A stretch of DNA of 64,000 nucleotides, taken from Pseudomonadales bacterium. Its GTDB lineage: Bacteria; Pseudomonadota; Gammaproteobacteria; Pseudomonadales; Azotimanducaceae. This document shows positions 44,227 to 54,988 of the stretch, one piece after another. Position 1 is the stretch's first letter. The number at the start of each line of letters is the position of its first letter. The stretch is taken from contig JANQKS010000078.1 in the NCBI GenBank assembly GCA_028281005.1, positions 1 through 64,000 on the forward strand, written 5' to 3'. The position numbers and the translations under genes are program-made. Below the pieces are notes generated by a model that saw nothing but the letters and a program-made list of their open reading frames with translations, was not told the DNA's origin and ran no database searches.

Positions 44227-46824
44227 TTATGCCTCAACCACAATTTCTTTGGCCAGTGATTTACCTTGCTCAGCCGCTTGGAGGAATTCCGGTACCTGAT
44301 CGAAATTCAGATAGTTATAAATCTCCGGCGCCATGGAATCGATCTGATTGGTATATTCCAGGTACTCCTGCGGCGTTGGCAACTTGCCCATTACCGCGGC
44401 GATGGCGGCCAGCTCCGCTGAGGCTAAGAACACATCTGCGCCTTGCCCCAAGCGGTTGGGGAAGTTTCGCGTCGAAGTTGACACACAGGTTGAGCCGGGG
44501 GCAATCCGCGCCTGGTTACCCATACAGAGACTACAGCCCGGCATCTCAGTGCGGGCGCCGGCCTGGGCGTAGATGTTGTAGTAACCCTCTTCCATCAGCT
44601 GGTTTTCGTCCATCTTGGTCGGCGGCGCAATCCACAGCCGCGTGGGGATCACCTCACCCGCGGCCTGCAGCAGCTTACCGGCGGCACGGAAGTGGCCGAT
44701 GTTGGTCATGCAGGAGCCAATAAAAATCTCCTGGATGGGCGTTCCCGCAACTTCCGACAACGGTTTGACGTCGTCGGGATCGTTCGGGCACGCCAATAGC
44801 GGTTCTTTAATCTCCGACATGTTGATTTCAATGACTTCCGCATACTCTGCGTTGTCGTCCGCACGCAACAAGCTCGGATTGGCGAGCCATTCTTCCATGG
44901 CGCGGGCGCGGCGTTCCAGGGTACGCGCGTCATCGTAGCCATTGGCGATCATCCAGCGCAGCATGACCACATTGGAGCGCAGATATTCCGCCACCGAATC
45001 TTCCGATAGGTTAATGGTGCAACCCCCCGCGGAGCGTTCAGCGGAAGCATCCGACAGCTCAAAAGCTTGCTCCACGGTAAGATCTTCGAGGCCTTGGATC
45101 TCCAGGATGCGGCCGTTATAAACATTCTTTTTACCTGCCTTTTCCACCGTCAGCAGGCCACGTTGAAGGGCCGCGTAGGGAATGGCGTTCACCAGGTCGC
45201 GCAGGGTGATACCCGGCTGCATCTCGCCGGTGAATTTCACCAACACAGATTCCGGCATATCCAACGGAATCACGCCGAGTGCAGCGCCAAACGCCACCAA
45301 ACCGGAACCCGCCGGGAACGAAATACCCAGCGGGAAACGCGTATGTGAGTCCCCACCGGTACCCACCTGGTCCGGCAGCAGCATGCGGTTGAGCCAACTG
45401 TGAATGATACCGTCACCCGGTCGCAGCGATACGCCACCACGATTGGTGATGAAGTCCGGCAAAGTGTGTTGGGTATCGATGTCCACGGGTTTCGGGTACG
45501 CCGCGGTGTGGCAGAAGCTCTGCATCACCAGATCCGCGGAGAAACCGAGACAAGCCAGCTCTTTCAGTTCATCGCGGGTCATCGGACCGGTGGTGTCTTG
45601 TGAACCCACCGTACCCATACGTGGTTCGCAATAAGTGCCTGGGCGCATGCCCTGGCCTTCCGGCAAACCGCAGGCGCGGCCGACCATTTTTTGCGCCAGG
45701 GTAAACCCTTTGTCGCTGACAGAGGGGTCTTCAGGGCGGCGGAATACATCCGTTGGGCCCAAACCAAGCGCCTCACGAGCGCGCTCAGTCAGGCTGCGAC
45801 CGATGATCAACGGGATACGGCCACCGGCTTTAACCTCGTCTAAAATCACTTCGGTTTTTAGCTCAAATTCGCTGAGCAGTTCGCCGTCTTCAGTCTCGAT
45901 GCGGCCTTCGTAGGGTTTCACCACCACCACATCACCCATGGCGAGTTTTTCCACCGGCGCTTCTATCGGCAGCGCGCCGGAATCTTCCACCGTGTTGAAG
46001 AAGATCGGCGCAATTTTGCCGCCAATCACCACGCCGCCCTGACGCTTGTTGGGCACAAATGGAATGTCATCCCCCATGGTCCACAACACTGAATTGGTGG
46101 CGCTTTTGCGCGACGAACCGGTGCCTACCACGTCGCCCACATAAGCCACCCCATGGCCTTTATTCTTGAGCGCTTCAATCTGGCCTATGGCGTCGGTAAT
46201 ACCTTCGCGGGGGTTTTTCAGCATGGCCAACGAATGTAGCGGTATGTCCGGGCGCGACCAAGCATCCTGCGCCGGGGACAAGTCGTCAGTGTTGGTTTCG
46301 CCGGTGACTTTAAACACCGACAGCGTGATGGTTTCGGGCAGATCTTCTTTCTCGGTGAACCACTCCGCATCCGCCCAAGCCTGCATGACGGCCTGGGCAT
46401 GGGGGTTGCCGTTCTTGGCTTTTTCAGCCACATCATGGAACGCATCAAACATAAGCAGCGTGCCTTTCAACTCCTCAGCCGCCGCGGCCGCTAGTTCCGC
46501 ATCGTCTAACAGTTCCACCAAGGGCATGATGTTGTATCCACCTAACATAGTGCCGAGCAATTCAATGGCCTTCGTTTTGCTGATCAGACCGCAGGCGGTC
46601 TCACCCTTGGCGATGTCGGCCAAGAAGGCCGCCTTGACATACGCGGCGTCGTCAACACCCGGCGGCACACGATTGGTGAGCAGGTCCCTGAGGAAGCTGT
46701 CTTCCCCGGCAGGTGGATTTTTCAGCAGTTCAATCAGTTCGCTAACTTGTTCAGCAGACAGCGGCAGCGGGGGGATACCCTGTTCTGCACGTTCCGCCGC
46801 ATGGGCACGATAAGCATCTAGCAT
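44227..46824 (-). CDS. acnB: Bifunctional aconitate hydratase 2/2-methylisocitrate dehydratase
   Basis: [27 protein letters not shown] start; [67 protein letters not shown]. Confidence 0.98.
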
Positions 46825-46984
46825 GTTCACCTCGTTCGGTTGCTGGCTGAGTGGCGTTTTCAAAGGGCGGATAATCTAGCAAAGGCATTTGCATGCGTAA
46901 AATCGATAGTTTTAATGTTTAACATAGATTATCTTTATGCATAATCTACGGAAGTTAGCGCTAATAGCGTCCCGAGGCACACAT

Positions 46985-47887
46985 ATGGATCTCAGTTTAA
47001 TGCGCTCATTGGTGGCGGTGGCTGATGCCGGCGCCATCACTGAAGCCGCGACCCGCTTAAACCTCACCCAACCCGCACTCACCCGGCGCATTCAATTGCT
47101 GGAGGAGGAGTTTGCCGCGGAACTACTCAGCCGTAGCCGCAAAGGTGCTGAACTCACCGAGCTCGGCAGGCTGGTGGAACGCGAAGCGCGCGTGTTAATC
47201 GACCGCTACGAAAACTTAAAGCGCGAAATTGCCAGCCAGCAAAGCGTCACCGGGGGCACAATCCGCATCGGCGGTGGCGCAACCGCCGTTTCATTTGTGT
47301 TGCCCGACGCCATCGCCGAGTTTCAACGTGACTTTCCCAAAGTCCACTTTCACGTCAAAGAAGCCAGCTCCAGCGAAATCGCCAGCGATGTCGCAGACGG
47401 GCGCCTGGAATTGGGTCTGGTCACCCAGCCGGTACGCACCGCGGGTTTAGAAATACAGCCCCTGGTTGATGACCACATCGTGCTGATCGCCGCGGCGGAC
47501 AACCCGCTGGCCCGCGCCAACCGTATCCAGGTGGCGGATCTCGACGGGCAGAACTTTGTTGGCTTCGAAGGCGGCAGCGCCATTCGCCAGATTGTGGATG
47601 CCAGTCTGCGGGAGGCTGGCATTGAAATAAATGTGGTGATGGAATTGCGTTCGATCCCGGCCATTGTGCGCATGGTGGCCACCACGGGCAGTTTGGCCTT
47701 TGTGTCTCAGCTGGGTGTGCACGGCCAGGAGCTGGTGCGCGAAATCAAGGTTGCAGGCCTGACCATCACCCGCCGTCTAGGATTGGCGCGCCGCAAAGGG
47801 CATGTGTTATCCCCCGCTGCGACGCGTTTTCACGATATGCTAGGCGGACACTTCGTGCCCGAAGGCGCACCCGAGCGAGCGGCATAG
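46985..47887 (+). CDS. LysR family transcriptional regulator, divergent from acnB
   Basis: MDLSLMRSLVAVADAGAITEAATRLNLTQPALTRRIQLLEEEFAAELLSRSRKGAELTELG. Confidence 0.95.
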   Translation: MDLSLMRSLVAVADAGAITEAATRLNLTQPALTRRIQLLEEEFAAELLSRSRKGAELTELGRLVEREARVLIDRYENLKREIASQQSVTGGTIRIGGGATAVSFVLPDAIAEFQRDFPKVHFHVKEASSSEIASDVADGRLELGLVTQPVRTAGLEIQPLVDDHIVLIAAADNPLARANRIQVADLDGQNFVGFEGGSAIRQIVDASLREAGIEINVVMELRSIPAIVRMVATTGSLAFVSQLGVHGQELVREIKVAGLTITRRLGLARRKGHVLSPAATRFHDMLGGHFVPEGAPERAA

Positions 47888-47961: not shown

Positions 47962-48630
47962 TCAGCGCACCCTTCGTACGACTACACGGGCTACAGGATT
48001 GCGCCAGTCGTAGGTTTCCGCGGGCAGGTCACCAATACCGTGCATGCCGTTGGCGACATGGACAAAACCTTCACCATCCTCTTCCGGTGACGCACCCTGC
48101 CCACCACAGCGCGGTCCGGGAATGTTTGCACACCACTCATCATTGGGTTCACTGCCGGCGTCATAGCCAAGCGCGGTATATACCCTGCTGCCGTACCGTG
48201 GCAGCCGCACGCTGTTCAGCGCCACAAAGCTATCGTTAGTCGGCAGTATCATGGCGGCAAAGCTCAGGCGGGCCCTGCGTCCATCGGTTTCCAGCCGCAG
48301 GGTGACAGACTGGCCCGCAAACAGAAGCGGCGGAGATCCCAGTACATCTGCGCTGTTGGCTGCATCAAGAACTTTCCCGGTGGCGGTCAATTCTTCTGCC
48401 AACAGAGACACGTCCCCATCCTCTGCCATCAAGGCCAGCCCTGCACTTGCCGGCTCTCCGAGTTGAAAATAAGAGATGGAAGCGCGATGTGTGGCGGCCA
48501 GAATCGGTGTGAATTGAGATGCCTTGGTTAAGTTGGTAATCGTGACTTCGTATACCTGGGATTTGTAGTAATCCGCAGCCGCGCCCGCGGCAGAGAACAT
48601 CAACACAAACCCTATTGCTAGCTTCTTCAT
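47962..48630 (-). CDS. Spondin-domain secreted protein
   Basis: Signal peptide; YEVTITNLTKASQFTPILAATHRASISYFQLGEPASAGLALMAEDGD. Confidence 0.85.
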   Translation of the reverse strand: MKKLAIGFVLMFSAAGAAADYYKSQVYEVTITNLTKASQFTPILAATHRASISYFQLGEPASAGLALMAEDGDVSLLAEELTATGKVLDAANSADVLGSPPLLFAGQSVTLRLETDGRRARLSFAAMILPTNDSFVALNSVRLPRYGSRVYTALGYDAGSEPNDEWCANIPGPRCGGQGASPEEDGEGFVHVANGMHGIGDLPAETYDWRNPVARVVVRRVR

Positions 48631-48646
48631 AGTTACTCCTGAATTG

Positions 48647-48709
48647 GTTTGGCGTTAACACGCACAGGTTTAGCGTCATGACGCATAGATTTAGCGTTTA
48701 CACGCATGA
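48647..48709. repeat. Three 21-bp imperfect direct repeats each with GCGT-N4-ACGC palindrome
   Basis: gtttggcgttaacacgcacag / gtttagcgtcatgacgcatag / atttagcgtttacacgcatga. Confidence 0.9.
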
Positions 48710-48834
48710 AAGATGCTAAGCCGCAGCCTCGATTCGGGTCCTCACGAAACTCTCACAATCGGGGGGCGTCCACGGTGATATTTCTGTGAGAATTTCAGTT
48801 CAACATCCTCCAGGCAGCAGGAACTATCGAGCAC

Positions 48835-49629
48835 ATGCAACGTCAAACCAGCGCAGGGAAAGTAGGGGAGCATCGCACAGTGGAAGGCAAACGCGTACTG
48901 GTGGTCGAGGACGAGCCCGACATCGGCCAACTTCTGATCATGCACCTGACTGACATGGGCGTTGATGCACGGCTGTGCAGCGACGGCGAACTGGCGCTGC
49001 GTCTTCTGTTAAGCGAGTACTGGGATCTTGTGCTGCTCGATCTGCGCTTGCCCGGTATAGATGGTGTTGAAGTATGTCGCCGTCTGCGCGCCGAAGGTAT
49101 AGCAGTTCCGATTCTCATGCTGACCGCCAAAACCTCCGAGTTGGACAGGGTCATGGGTCTGGAAATCGGTGCGGACGACTACATTACGAAGCCCTTCAGT
49201 GTTATGGAAGTAATGGCACGCGTGCGCGCGACCGTGCGCCGGGTGGATCTGGAGCGCCGACAGGTCAGCGAGACTTCGGTGGTCACCACGGGCAATATCC
49301 GCATCGATGAAGCCCGCAGAGAAGTCACCGTGGCAGCACAGCCGGTCAGTCTGACCGCCAAGGAGTTTGACCTGCTTCTTTTTTTCGCCCAATCCCCCGG
49401 CCAGGTGTTCCGCCGTGTGCACCTCCTGGATCAGGTTTGGGGCTTTGGCTATGCCGGCTATGAACACACCGTCAATTCCCACATCAACCGTTTACGCAGC
49501 AAGTTGCAGAAAGCTGATCCGGCGAACGACTATATCGTTACCGTCTGGGGCGTGGGGTACAAATTTAATGATGCCCCCGCGGCTACAGACCAAAATTCGC
49601 TGAGCGCAGAGGAAGACCATGTCGCTTAA
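48835..49629 (+). CDS. OmpR-family response regulator
   Basis: VLVVEDEPDIGQLL, DLVLLDLRLPGIDGVEVCR, winged-helix C-terminus SLTAKEFDLLLFFAQSPGQVFRRVHLLDQVWG. Confidence 0.95.
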   Translation: MQRQTSAGKVGEHRTVEGKRVLVVEDEPDIGQLLIMHLTDMGVDARLCSDGELALRLLLSEYWDLVLLDLRLPGIDGVEVCRRLRAEGIAVPILMLTAKTSELDRVMGLEIGADDYITKPFSVMEVMARVRATVRRVDLERRQVSETSVVTTGNIRIDEARREVTVAAQPVSLTAKEFDLLLFFAQSPGQVFRRVHLLDQVWGFGYAGYEHTVNSHINRLRSKLQKADPANDYIVTVWGVGYKFNDAPAATDQNSLSAEEDHVA

Positions 49630-51073
49630 ATGGCGCCTGGGATGGACCCTAATGCTCACGTTGATCGGCGTGGGGATCGCCATCGCGTGGGCGGGGCGTT
49701 ATGCCTCCAACCTGTATTTCCAGGAGGTCAATCAAACTTTGAATGCCAGTCTGTCCATGTATGTGGTCGAGCGCCTGACGTTGATCGAAGACGGCACCAT
49801 CAACGAAGCCGCGTTTACCCGACTTGCGGACCAGGCCATGACGGTTAATCCAAGCGTCGAGGTTTACGTTCTGGACCCGACGGGTCTGATCGTTGCGCAC
49901 ACCATGCCGGAGGACTCTATCCTCCACCGCCGCATCCCAACAGCGCCGGTGGTCGAGTTCCTCGGCGGTGGTTTCGCGCGGCCGCTGCTCGGTCAGGATC
50001 CCCGCTCCGATTCCCCAAAGGCCTTCAGCGCGTCCGCGATCATGCACGGCGATCAATTGCAAGGATACCTGTATGTGGTGCTGGGCGGACGCTTGTTCGA
50101 TGAGGTGCAGGCTTCCTTCCTGGGCACGTTTATCGGACGGATCGGTGCCGCCACCTTGCTCGCGGTGTTGCTGCTGGGTGGGGTAGCGGGCTTGTTTGCT
50201 CTGCGCCGAACGACTCGACCCCTGGAGAACCTGCAGGCCGCTCTGTCGCGCTATACCCGCAGCGGGTTCACCGAGGACGCAGATATCCATGCCGTAGCTG
50301 AGAATACCGCGGAGGTAAAGGCGCTGAAGACGGAACTCACCCATATGACCACCACGCTGCAGGACCAGTTGCGTCAGATTGAAACCCATGACCGGCTGCG
50401 CCGGGAGCTGCTGGCCAACGTATCCCATGACCTGAGAACACCACTGGCATCGATGCAGGGCTACCTTGAGACCATGCTGATTAAAGACGCTGAACTAACC
50501 GTCGATGAGCGCAAAAAATACACGGAAATCGCTCATCAGCATGCACAACGCCTGAACCGGCTGGTGAGTCACTTGTTTGAGCTGGCCAAACTCGACAGCG
50601 GCGCGTTGAAAATCGATTGCGAGCCTTTTTCTGTGGCGGAACTGCTGAGCGATGTGATTCAGGAGTTCGCATTGCAAGCCATAGAAAAGCACATCACACT
50701 GAATCTGATAGGCGCAGAAAAACATGCCGAGGTGTTGGCTGTAGCGGACATCGGCATGATGCAACGTGTGTTCGAGAACCTGTTGAGCAATGCGCTGCGG
50801 CATACACCAGAGGGCGGCAGCATCGACATTGAAATCAATCCGCACGCCAGCCGGATTCTAGTGGAGGTCAGCGACACAGGGTGTGGCATCGACCCGGGTC
50901 TGTTACCTGATATCTTCGAGCGTTACGCCAGTGGAGACGGTGGCAGCGAAAGTACGGGGTTAGGGCTCGCCATCGTCAAACGCATACTTGAGTTGCACGA
51001 CAGCGATATCACCGTAACCTCCCGACCAAACCAAGGCACCGCCTTCTGTTTCCAACTCGACCGCGCCGCCTAA
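49619..51073 (+). CDS. Sensor histidine kinase
   Basis: H-box LLANVSHDLRTPLASMQGYLETM; N box NLLSNALRHTPEGG; G boxes; two TM segments and HAMP-like region. Confidence 0.95.
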   Translation: MSLKWRLGWTLMLTLIGVGIAIAWAGRYASNLYFQEVNQTLNASLSMYVVERLTLIEDGTINEAAFTRLADQAMTVNPSVEVYVLDPTGLIVAHTMPEDSILHRRIPTAPVVEFLGGGFARPLLGQDPRSDSPKAFSASAIMHGDQLQGYLYVVLGGRLFDEVQASFLGTFIGRIGAATLLAVLLLGGVAGLFALRRTTRPLENLQAALSRYTRSGFTEDADIHAVAENTAEVKALKTELTHMTTTLQDQLRQIETHDRLRRELLANVSHDLRTPLASMQGYLETMLIKDAELTVDERKKYTEIAHQHAQRLNRLVSHLFELAKLDSGALKIDCEPFSVAELLSDVIQEFALQAIEKHITLNLIGAEKHAEVLAVADIGMMQRVFENLLSNALRHTPEGGSIDIEINPHASRILVEVSDTGCGIDPGLLPDIFERYASGDGGSESTGLGLAIVKRILELHDSDITVTSRPNQGTAFCFQLDRAA

Positions 51074-51184: not shown

Positions 51185-51420
51185 TCGTCTTTAACGTTGA
51201 TGATCTCAAAAGTTTGGGCCTAACGGTGCAGCGTGGTTAGCGCGCGGGCGGTACACAAAACATCTTCACTTTGGGCCTCGTCCTGTACGATCCCGAATAC
51301 ACAACCAACTACGAATTGGCCTACCGGTCAGAAAGTACCGACGACAGCCGCGGCTTCAATGCAAACGCGTTCTATACACAATGGATCGATCATCCGGTGG
51401 ACCGCTTTCTCTTGCGCTAG
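51185..51420 (+). pseudogene. TonB-dependent receptor remnant
   Basis: FNVDDLKSLGLTVQRG*RAGGTQNIFTLGLVLYDPEYTTNYELAYRSESTDDSRGFNANAFYTQWIDHPVDRFLLR*; aligns by eye with RGYRSGG...YEVFYRS...VNANVFYLDWTDQQV of the intact neighbour. Confidence 0.85.
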
Positions 51421-53888
51421 AGTTCCAGCGTCAATTCCACACCAAAGACCTGTGGATTGCCGATTACGGCAGAGCCGAGCCCGCCGCTGCGAAAGTCATC
51501 TTGGTTGATCAACAGTGCATACTCCTCATCGAAGGCATTGCGCGCAAAACCATACATGGCCCACCTTTCGCTGCGGAAACCGGCTTTGGCATTGAAGAGC
51601 ATGTAGGCGTCAAGCGTGTTGTCGCTTGGGTTGGAATCACTTGGGGAGTTGTCCGCACCCGAGAATGCTTCTGCAACCCAGGAGGCGTCGACGCTCAAGA
51701 AAAGACCGTGGGAGTTTTCGTAGATAACGCCAAGGCTGGCCTGCATGTCTGGGGATCGACCAAACTCGTTGCCATTCAAATCCTCATCCACAGCGTCGAA
51801 GTCGACAAACTCTGTGTCGTTGTATCCTACGGTGAGAAACGTTTTCAGGTTGGGCGTGAACTGCACCGTCACTTCACCCTCAAGACCCCACAGGCGCGAC
51901 TCCGCGGCGTTCTCAGTTGCAACGTCTAGACCAGTTCCGATACCGACTTGTTGGTCTGTCCAGTCGAGGTAGAAGACGTTGGCGTTCACCGACATGCGGC
52001 CATCCCACCAGGTAGAGCGGTAAAACACTTCGTAGCTCCAGAGATACTCTGAATCGAATTCGAAAGGTCTGCCGGCGGGGTTGATACCGGCGCCGCCGGA
52101 TCGATAACCGCGCTGAATGATCAGCCCAATGGTCTGGGTTGGGTCGATCTCGTAGCGTAAGCCAAGTTTGGGCAGGAACGCATCGAAGGTGGTGTCCACG
52201 TCCTGTTCCACCCCGATTGAGGTCACCAACCCGAAAGTGGGAAACTCTGGATCTAGAAACGTTGAGGCCTGGGACTGACTGGCATAACGCTCTCGGTCGT
52301 AGCGCAGCCCAAACAACACCGCAAGACGCTCTTGCAACGCAAACTCCCCGTCGATGTAGAGCGCGTAGTTTTCAATGTCTGAGCCACCCTGGGAAATCTG
52401 AGCGAAGTTTGTGTCGATCAATCCCCCGGCTAATATCAGTCGTCCGGAAAGATCGCGGTCGCTGGCTCGATCCCGCTCGAAGTAATATAGGCCCAACAGC
52501 ATGTCGAGATTAGCAAGGTCGATCAGCAGCCGCAGGTCGGTGGTGATTATTTCTTCGTTGTCACTGCCCAAATCAAGAAATCCGCCGTCGTTTGGATCGA
52601 TGCGAAAGCGTGGTTCCGAGACTTCCTTGGCATCGGAGTAGGTTGTTATCCAGTCGAACTTCATCTCGGGGCTGATTGTGTAGGTCGCCTTCGCAGACAG
52701 ATTATGGGAGTCGATGCTCTGCAGAACCGGATTGGCAACGCTGACTTCGCGAGCGAAGTAGTCCGGACCTTGCACGACCCCGGAGCTTAGTCCAGTGCTC
52801 GCATCGCCTTCGGAATAGACATACGTCAGCAGCGTGGAGAGCTTGTCGGTCGGCTCGAACAACACTTTCGTGCGGAGCGTCAGAGATTCATCTTCGTCCT
52901 GATTGTCCCGATCGGTGACGGGATTGCTGACGTAACCATCGGTGGTGCGAAAATCAGCGGCAATTCGAAATGCCAGCTGTTGGTCCACGATTGGGCCGCC
53001 AAAAGCGAGTCCGTAGCGCTGGGTATTATATTCGGCGACCTCGAGGCGGGCTTTGCCACTCCAAACGTACTCCGGATTGCGGGTATGCAGAACCACTGCG
53101 CCCATCAACGTGTTCCGACCCTGAATGGTTGACTGCGGCCCTCTGTAGATTTCAGCTTGATCCAAATCGAACACACCAGATGGTCCTGCTTCGATGCCGA
53201 GGTTGGATTGAAATATCTCGTCGATATAAAGCGACGAGGTGTTAGCAACGCCAGCGAACCCCAGCCCACCGATAGCCGGTACCCCACGGATCGAGAACGT
53301 GCCTTCGCTACTGTCGAGCTGATTGACATTGGGCGTGAATCGATAGAGATCGGTTAATTCGGTGAACGTGAGGTCTTCTAGCAGCGCAGCGTCGATTAAC
53401 GCGACGCTGGATGAGGTGTCGTAAATGGACCGCGCACGTTTCTGACCCAGGACGACGATGTTCTCAATCTCGATTGGTGAAGATATGTTGCTGCTCTGTG
53501 GCGACCGTGGCGATTTGCCCGAATTCGGAGGGGTATTTGAGGCGGGCGTATCCGCAGCTACCGTCACAACCACGATCCCTGAAGCGGCCACACTGGCAGT
53601 GAGACCGGTTCCCTGGAGCAATGCATCGAGTGAGCGCCCCAGGGTGTAGCTGCCGCGAAGTGCTGCGGCGCGCCGATCACCTACGACATTTGCCGGCGCA
53701 ATAATTTGAGTCTGATGTTGCCGGGCCAGAGCAACGAGAGAATCACCCAAATGCTGCGCCGGAATGTCAATCTCTACTTCAACCGCCTCGATTGCCGCGG
53801 CCAGCGTGGAAGGGCACGCAAGCAGCAGGGTCATGGCCAGGCAGCTACTGCCGAAGGCGGATTTGAACAAACGACTGACTTCCTTCAT
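51417..53888 (-). CDS. FecA-like TonB-dependent receptor with N-terminal STN signalling domain
   Basis: STN: VEIDIPAQHLGDSLVALARQHQTQIIAPANVVGDRRAAALRGSYTLGRSLDALLQGTGLTA; plug and barrel; C-terminal GVELTLEL. Confidence 0.93.
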   Translation of the reverse strand: MKEVSRLFKSAFGSSCLAMTLLLACPSTLAAAIEAVEVEIDIPAQHLGDSLVALARQHQTQIIAPANVVGDRRAAALRGSYTLGRSLDALLQGTGLTASVAASGIVVVTVAADTPASNTPPNSGKSPRSPQSSNISSPIEIENIVVLGQKRARSIYDTSSSVALIDAALLEDLTFTELTDLYRFTPNVNQLDSSEGTFSIRGVPAIGGLGFAGVANTSSLYIDEIFQSNLGIEAGPSGVFDLDQAEIYRGPQSTIQGRNTLMGAVVLHTRNPEYVWSGKARLEVAEYNTQRYGLAFGGPIVDQQLAFRIAADFRTTDGYVSNPVTDRDNQDEDESLTLRTKVLFEPTDKLSTLLTYVYSEGDASTGLSSGVVQGPDYFAREVSVANPVLQSIDSHNLSAKATYTISPEMKFDWITTYSDAKEVSEPRFRIDPNDGGFLDLGSDNEEIITTDLRLLIDLANLDMLLGLYYFERDRASDRDLSGRLILAGGLIDTNFAQISQGGSDIENYALYIDGEFALQERLAVLFGLRYDRERYASQSQASTFLDPEFPTFGLVTSIGVEQDVDTTFDAFLPKLGLRYEIDPTQTIGLIIQRGYRSGGAGINPAGRPFEFDSEYLWSYEVFYRSTWWDGRMSVNANVFYLDWTDQQVGIGTGLDVATENAAESRLWGLEGEVTVQFTPNLKTFLTVGYNDTEFVDFDAVDEDLNGNEFGRSPDMQASLGVIYENSHGLFLSVDASWVAEAFSGADNSPSDSNPSDNTLDAYMLFNAKAGFRSERWAMYGFARNAFDEEYALLINQDDFRSGGLGSAVIGNPQVFGVELTLEL

Positions 53889-53907
53889 TGAGCTCTCCTT
53901 TTAGATG

Positions 53908-53930
53908 ATGCGACTGAAAATCAGTCGCAT
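53908..53930. other. 10-bp perfect stem, 3-nt loop hairpin in the fecR-receptor intergenic region
   Basis: atgcgactga-aaa-tcagtcgcat. Confidence 0.75.
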
Positions 53931-53995
53931 TTCTAAATAAGACTCTCGTGGTGTTGAAAGCGTCGGTCTCGTGCCGAAATTTAACGTTTCGGGAT

Positions 53996-54988
53996 TCAGC
54001 GCATACGAATATCGATACGGTTGGCCCGCAGTTGCCTGACGCGGATTGGCAGCGCCTCCTCGAGCGTGTGTAATACGCCGGTGATATCGTCAGTGTTGAA
54101 CACAGCGTTGAGCGTCAGGTCAGCCGCTGCAGGGTCGGATATGGTGAGTTGTCCGTCGAAGTACCGGTTGACGTCTGCGATGATCTCGGCCAATGGCGCA
54201 TTGCGGTAGACCAACTCACCCCAACGCCAGGCTGCGATCTGCCGCGCATCTAGCGCTGATACTTCGGAGTGTCCAGATTTCAGGTTGGTCTCGACCTGTT
54301 CACCAGCGGATAGGTGCATGATCTTGTCAGTCTGCCCGTCTGCGGACACGGCAACCTCGCCCTCGGCAATGCCGACGCGCACTGAGCGATTGCTGCGGCG
54401 AACCGCGAAAGCGGTGCCGACAACCTCGATGGTCACCTGGCCGACCGTCACTAAGAACGGTGTGGTCGGATCTCGGGCTACATCAAAAAAAGCTTCGCCA
54501 TGTTGCAGCACCACGAGTCGTTCAGAAGATGATAAACTGGCCGTCAATCGAGTCTCTGCACCGAGGCTGACCTGAGTTCCGTCAGCCAGTGTCACATCTT
54601 CCGTCTGGGCAACCTGCGTGCGATACAGTGTCGGTTTTTGTGATGGGCTGATCAATATGATCGCCACCGCGAGCATTATGGCTGCTGCGATACTGATCGT
54701 CGCGCGGTGCCCTAAACGCCAGCCAAGCATCCATATCGTCGAAGGTTCGACTGCCTCAGCCAAGTCAGGCGGGGTCTTCCGATTGGTTGCCCAAGCCGAC
54801 GACCGCAAGCCTTCGAGCTTGAACCAAAGCAGCTCTGCGCGCTCAAAAGCTTGTCGATTGTGTTCGCTAGCCTTGAGCCACTGTTCGAAATCAGCACGAT
54901 CCTCAGGGCTGATATCTCCACCACCAATGCGCGCTTGCCAGCGACAGGCAGTCGTCAAGGCGGCTTCTTGTTCGGCGGATTTGGTCAT
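53996..54988 (-). CDS. FecR-family anti-sigma/signal transducer
   Basis: ACRWQARIGGGDISPEDRADFEQWLKASEHNRQAFERAELLW; TQVAQTEDVTLADGTQVSLGAETRL; C-terminal secretin/STN-like IIADVNRYFDGQLTI. Confidence 0.93.
   Translation of the reverse strand: MTKSAEQEAALTTACRWQARIGGGDISPEDRADFEQWLKASEHNRQAFERAELLWFKLEGLRSSAWATNRKTPPDLAEAVEPSTIWMLGWRLGHRATISIAAAIMLAVAIILISPSQKPTLYRTQVAQTEDVTLADGTQVSLGAETRLTASLSSSERLVVLQHGEAFFDVARDPTTPFLVTVGQVTIEVVGTAFAVRRSNRSVRVGIAEGEVAVSADGQTDKIMHLSAGEQVETNLKSGHSEVSALDARQIAAWRWGELVYRNAPLAEIIADVNRYFDGQLTISDPAAADLTLNAVFNTDDITGVLHTLEEALPIRVRQLRANRIDIRMR

Follow-up and report, generated by a model that had tools for sequence, protein, structure and literature searches.

Conserved direct-repeat boxes predicted as operators of an OmpR-type regulator, and a private palindrome array, upstream of a bacterial spondin-domain gene

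Response regulators of the OmpR family generally bind direct repeats, and a repeat of 11 bp is typical. Operators of the OmpR/PhoB family consist of head-to-tail half-sites with an 11-bp period located upstream of the -10 element, and they are found in autoregulated promoters, either divergent or co-directional. In these respects they resemble two boxes in the intergenic gap analysed here, from which they differ in the half-site, YGTGAT, which our searches linked to no characterised regulator. With regard to gene content, a set Spondin_N - Spondin_N - OmpR regulator - kinase was noted earlier in Pseudoalteromonas luteoviolacea (PMC6316408, Fig. 8). The association is the same, but there an L-amino acid oxidase belongs to the same putative operon, which includes two Spondin_N genes, whereas the spondin gene in our locus is single and divergent. 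The accessible part of that report describes neither an operator nor a function for the spondin-regulator-kinase set, and our literature searches on the palindrome and on bacterial spondin with two-component systems returned nothing beyond it. By the type of predicted targets, as far as the accessible parts of the sources go, the system can also be likened to the periplasmic methionine-oxidation and copper responses of E. coli, i.e. MsrPQ and CusF (PMC9302797), and to bufferins (PMC12452194): methionine sulfoxide reductase, Met-rich exported proteins and a DUF2282 bufferin are shared, while the spondin genes are an additional target here.

The features of the gap and its flanks are given below by their positions in the window, i.e. 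the whole analysed stretch of 64,000 nucleotides.

47962..48630, minus strand: spondin-domain protein of 222 aa (Pfam Spond_N, E=3e-10; NCBIfam NF038123, 150 bits, cut-off 40)
48633..48707, minus strand: leader ORF MRVNAKSMRHDAKPVRVNAKPIQE of 24 codons with heptapeptide repeats, in the array, with no evident ribosome-binding site
48648..48710, no strand assigned: palindrome array of three 21-bp units TTTRGCGTN4ACGCAY..., private to this genome
48713..48718, minus strand: weak candidate -10 element TAGCAT for the spondin gene, which places the array in the 5' leader
48742..48757, minus strand: predicted response-regulator box facing the spondin gene, TGTGA-GAGTTT-CGTGA (matrix rank 1 of ~128,000 positions)
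48774..48789, plus strand: predicted response-regulator box facing the regulator-kinase operon, GGTGA-TATTTC-TGTGA (matrix rank 2 of ~128,000)
48880..49629, plus strand: OmpR/PhoB-family response regulator (Response_reg and Trans_reg_C)
49619..51073, plus strand: sensor histidine kinase (HisKA and HATPase_c)

The spondin-domain protein exceeds the cut-offs of both NF038123 and Pfam Spond_N, which places it in the family, and its N-terminus, judged by eye, resembles a signal peptide. The regulator combines a receiver with a winged-helix Trans_reg_C domain, as expected of the OmpR/PhoB family; GTG 48880 appears a more likely start than the annotated ATG 48835, because alignments with proteins of solved structure set in near residue 19 of the longer ORF and because of the starts of orthologues. 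None of the 25 listed NCBIfam equivalogs (heavy-metal, MtrA, CreB, PhoB) reaches its cut-off with this protein, the best among the matches listed being MtrA (218 bits against 300). The membrane topology of the kinase was assigned by eye. Just past the kinase, a TonB-dependent receptor with an STN domain and a FecR-type regulator (51417-54988, minus strand) probably form a separate iron-type signalling unit. On the other flank (44227-47887), an 878-aa aconitase B-like ORF is divergent from a LysR-type regulator that adjoins the spondin gene, and no array-like near-match was seen between these two.

The palindrome array is the most conspicuous element of the gap, and a sequence-only reading had taken it for a cooperative operator of the adjacent response regulator. 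Its description of the array holds: the GCGT-N4-ACGC cores lie at 48652 (GCGTTAACACGC), 48673 (GCGTCATGACGC) and 48694 (GCGTTTACACGC), exactly 21 bp apart, and 17 bp separate the edge of the array at 48648 from the spondin ATG (48630). The distance of about 125 bp to the regulator is correct for the annotated ATG and grows to ~170 bp for the likelier GTG. TRF reports a tandem array of period 21 with 2.9 copies. The array is more than a product of chance, as matched random sequence does not produce such arrays (zero GCGTN4ACGC pairs within 40 bp in 40 Markov sequences of 64 kb each). The units vary in nine of their 21 columns, none of which belongs to the eight arm columns (hypergeometric p = 0.0024, with the arm columns picked post hoc from data already seen), which may be taken as mild evidence of past selection on the palindrome arms. 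The palindrome itself is just 4+4 bp long, with asymmetric TTTA/A flanks.

A homologue search with the sensor half of the kinase as query gave matches in 62 of 392 genomes of the order and in 71 of 369 genomes of the class. Among 97 regulator-kinase relatives, 40 have one to three spondin genes inside the fetched ~10 kb; the main layouts are spondin-spondin-regulator-kinase (18) and regulator-kinase-spondin (12), and the divergent layout of the window recurs in one locus (L166). The first sign of a shared operator was the recurrence of YGTGA at 11-bp steps upstream of spondin-first operons, and the element common to orthologue promoters is a set of 11-bp direct repeats, YGTGATANTTYGTGA. Of 57 relatives in the order, 35 have YGTGA-N6-YGTGA upstream of the first operon gene; shuffled sequences gave 0.19 and the reverse strand two, and matches with other spacings were few apart from the two-unit step. 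The remaining 22 relatives lack an exact match, and 16 of 56 have a matrix score below 10. In a sample dominated by other orders of the class, the exact box was found in 22 of 39 loci, and a matrix score of at least 10 in 29 of 38, where the reverse strand reached this score in 5 of 38. At a distance of exactly 27 nt from the first repeat, hexamers resembling a -10 element are overrepresented (10 of 35 relatives). Of 33 other spondin genes, 25, some of them far from the kinase, also have the box in front of them, and none of the 33 has the array there. In the L166 locus, from another order, each of the two divergent genes has a box facing it, and the array is absent.

Both boxes in the gap belong to this conserved type: they have the period of 10-11 bp and the conservation upstream of orthologues that characterize a direct-repeat operator, which the array does not. 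With a matrix built from 35 relatives, the window left out, and seeded by sites fitting the exact pattern, the boxes score 19.0 and 17.0, compared with 9.8 for the next best position in the window and -13.6 for the best position in the array. The spondin-facing box is the sole YGTGAN6YGTGA in 64 kb; the regulator-facing one starts with GGTGA rather than YGTGA. In the whole genome these two are the only box matches close together, and most of the eight others lie within larger ORFs; one of them (C33:23672, score 18.4) is located 49 bp ahead of a gene read as a methyltransferase-type enzyme. A consensus scan of the gap revealed no sigma-70 promoter and no terminator.

The array, for its part, has no counterpart in the sets searched. 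A genome scan of the kind proposed along with the operator reading returned, for exact TTTRGCGTN4ACGCAY in 5.1 Mb, these three units only, with no further intergenic near-matches; the seven one-mismatch matches and the three in-window cores examined were all covered by ORFs, and up to two mismatches the pattern gave 81/83 matches against 60/79 for a reversed-pattern control, i.e. little excess. We therefore discarded the idea of a repeated genomic element or a wider regulon of the array; a viral origin was likewise dismissed, as there was no viral match. Neither 39 further genomes of the genus nor the regions upstream of ~97 related two-component loci contain the array. Among about 85,000 species scanned, it had four chance-level matches, in unrelated phyla. 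In a Treponema MAG contig, an unrelated taxon, the two-unit palindrome pattern occurs twice, 105 bp apart (L149:6205-6342). The sample contained no closer relative of the same layout in which the array could be traced.

What, then, is the array? Helical phasing at 21 bp, the position between the spondin and regulator genes and the preservation of the arms among the units would all suit cooperative binding by the adjacent regulator. However, no relative with the same gene set carries the array, an outcome that the sequence-only reading itself had named as counting against its model, its matrix score is far below background, and regulators of the OmpR family usually bind direct repeats, a different one of which is conserved here. 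Moreover, the recognition helix of the regulator is invariant in 96 orthologues and unchanged in the window protein, and a change of specificity is therefore unlikely. On the matrix score and the absence in relatives we rejected this candidate: as judged from these comparisons, the neighbouring regulator almost certainly binds elsewhere than at the array, and we regard the cooperative-operator model as very improbable. Only slightly better placed, and still improbable, is a role in the transcript, through either a 24-codon leader ORF translationally coupled to the spondin gene or three small hairpins. The unit equals 7 codons, the frame is open and its stop lies 2 nt ahead of the spondin ATG, but no ribosome-binding site is visible for this ORF, the variable columns have no bias to third positions, and the predicted folding of the leader RNA is no more stable than that of shuffled sequences (z = 0.04), which gives no support to an RNA attenuator; nothing in the sequence suggests that the ORF is translated.

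The array could also have arisen recently as tandem copies of 21 bp that have no regulatory role and drift in a leader of otherwise normal length, a reading that we consider rather unlikely, yet considerably less so than the two preceding readings. It agrees with the occurrence in one genome only and with the similar box-to-start distances (~100-125 nt) in several relatives without the array, according to which the array seems to add nothing essential; the substitutions that all spare the palindrome arms speak against it. If the array is functional, it would most likely be a private operator for another dimeric regulator, acting as a roadblock or modulator, a role that we hold to be a real possibility, if short of an even chance. 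From the same box-to-start distances we infer that the array lies in the spondin 5' leader, with the weak -10 candidate on one side of it and the ribosome-binding site on the other.

In our proposal, the gap holds divergent promoters, very probably controlled by the adjacent OmpR-type regulator via the two direct-repeat boxes, and the array is, with the same confidence, not the conserved site of this regulator. The boxes are oppositely oriented, and one would drive the spondin gene while the other would drive the regulator-kinase operon, i.e. autoregulation. Once phosphorylated, the regulator would occupy each box in head-to-tail fashion and switch on transcription from the nearby -10 element, and the array would be a separate private element between the putative spondin transcription start and the ATG. 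The suggestion that the spondin gene is a direct target of the regulator is thus well supported, although via the boxes: by the spondin-linked loci and by the boxed spondin promoters counted above.

In relatives without spondin, the box near the kinase precedes genes for exported MsrA/MsrAB, for exported-looking proteins with about 20% methionine, for a DUF1223 protein (L155:1711-2490) and for a thioredoxin-like protein. In such relatives it is also found near the kinase ahead of DUF2282 bufferin-type genes, one of which (L182) is just under the Pfam cut-off. Elsewhere the box precedes spondin genes unlinked to the kinase, e.g. in L210, ~1.2 Mb away. Small exported-looking proteins with the box upstream stand beside the same kinase family at L106, L107, L117, L122, L123, L132 and L143; those measured contain about 20% methionine, and they gave no Pfam family where scanned. 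It is possible that they are methionine sinks or copper binders. Another box precedes an exported-looking protein of 144 aa without assignment to a family (L091:4611-5042). This gene content suggests an envelope response to methionine oxidation or copper. Tentatively, and with more doubt than confidence, we envisage a widespread, apparently undescribed regulon that groups spondin genes with MsrA/MsrAB, Met-rich exported proteins and bufferins, while in this genome a second regulator would act on the spondin gene through the array.

As operators, the conserved boxes are of a common kind, and what deserves testing is the predicted regulon together with the private array. The locus also teaches that an eye-catching palindrome array can mislead when a subtler conserved direct repeat adjoins it. 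We found no described function for bacterial spondin-domain proteins, and the operator that would tie them to methionine repair or copper buffering provides a first testable hypothesis on their function, in which the boxes name the promoter bases open to mutation.
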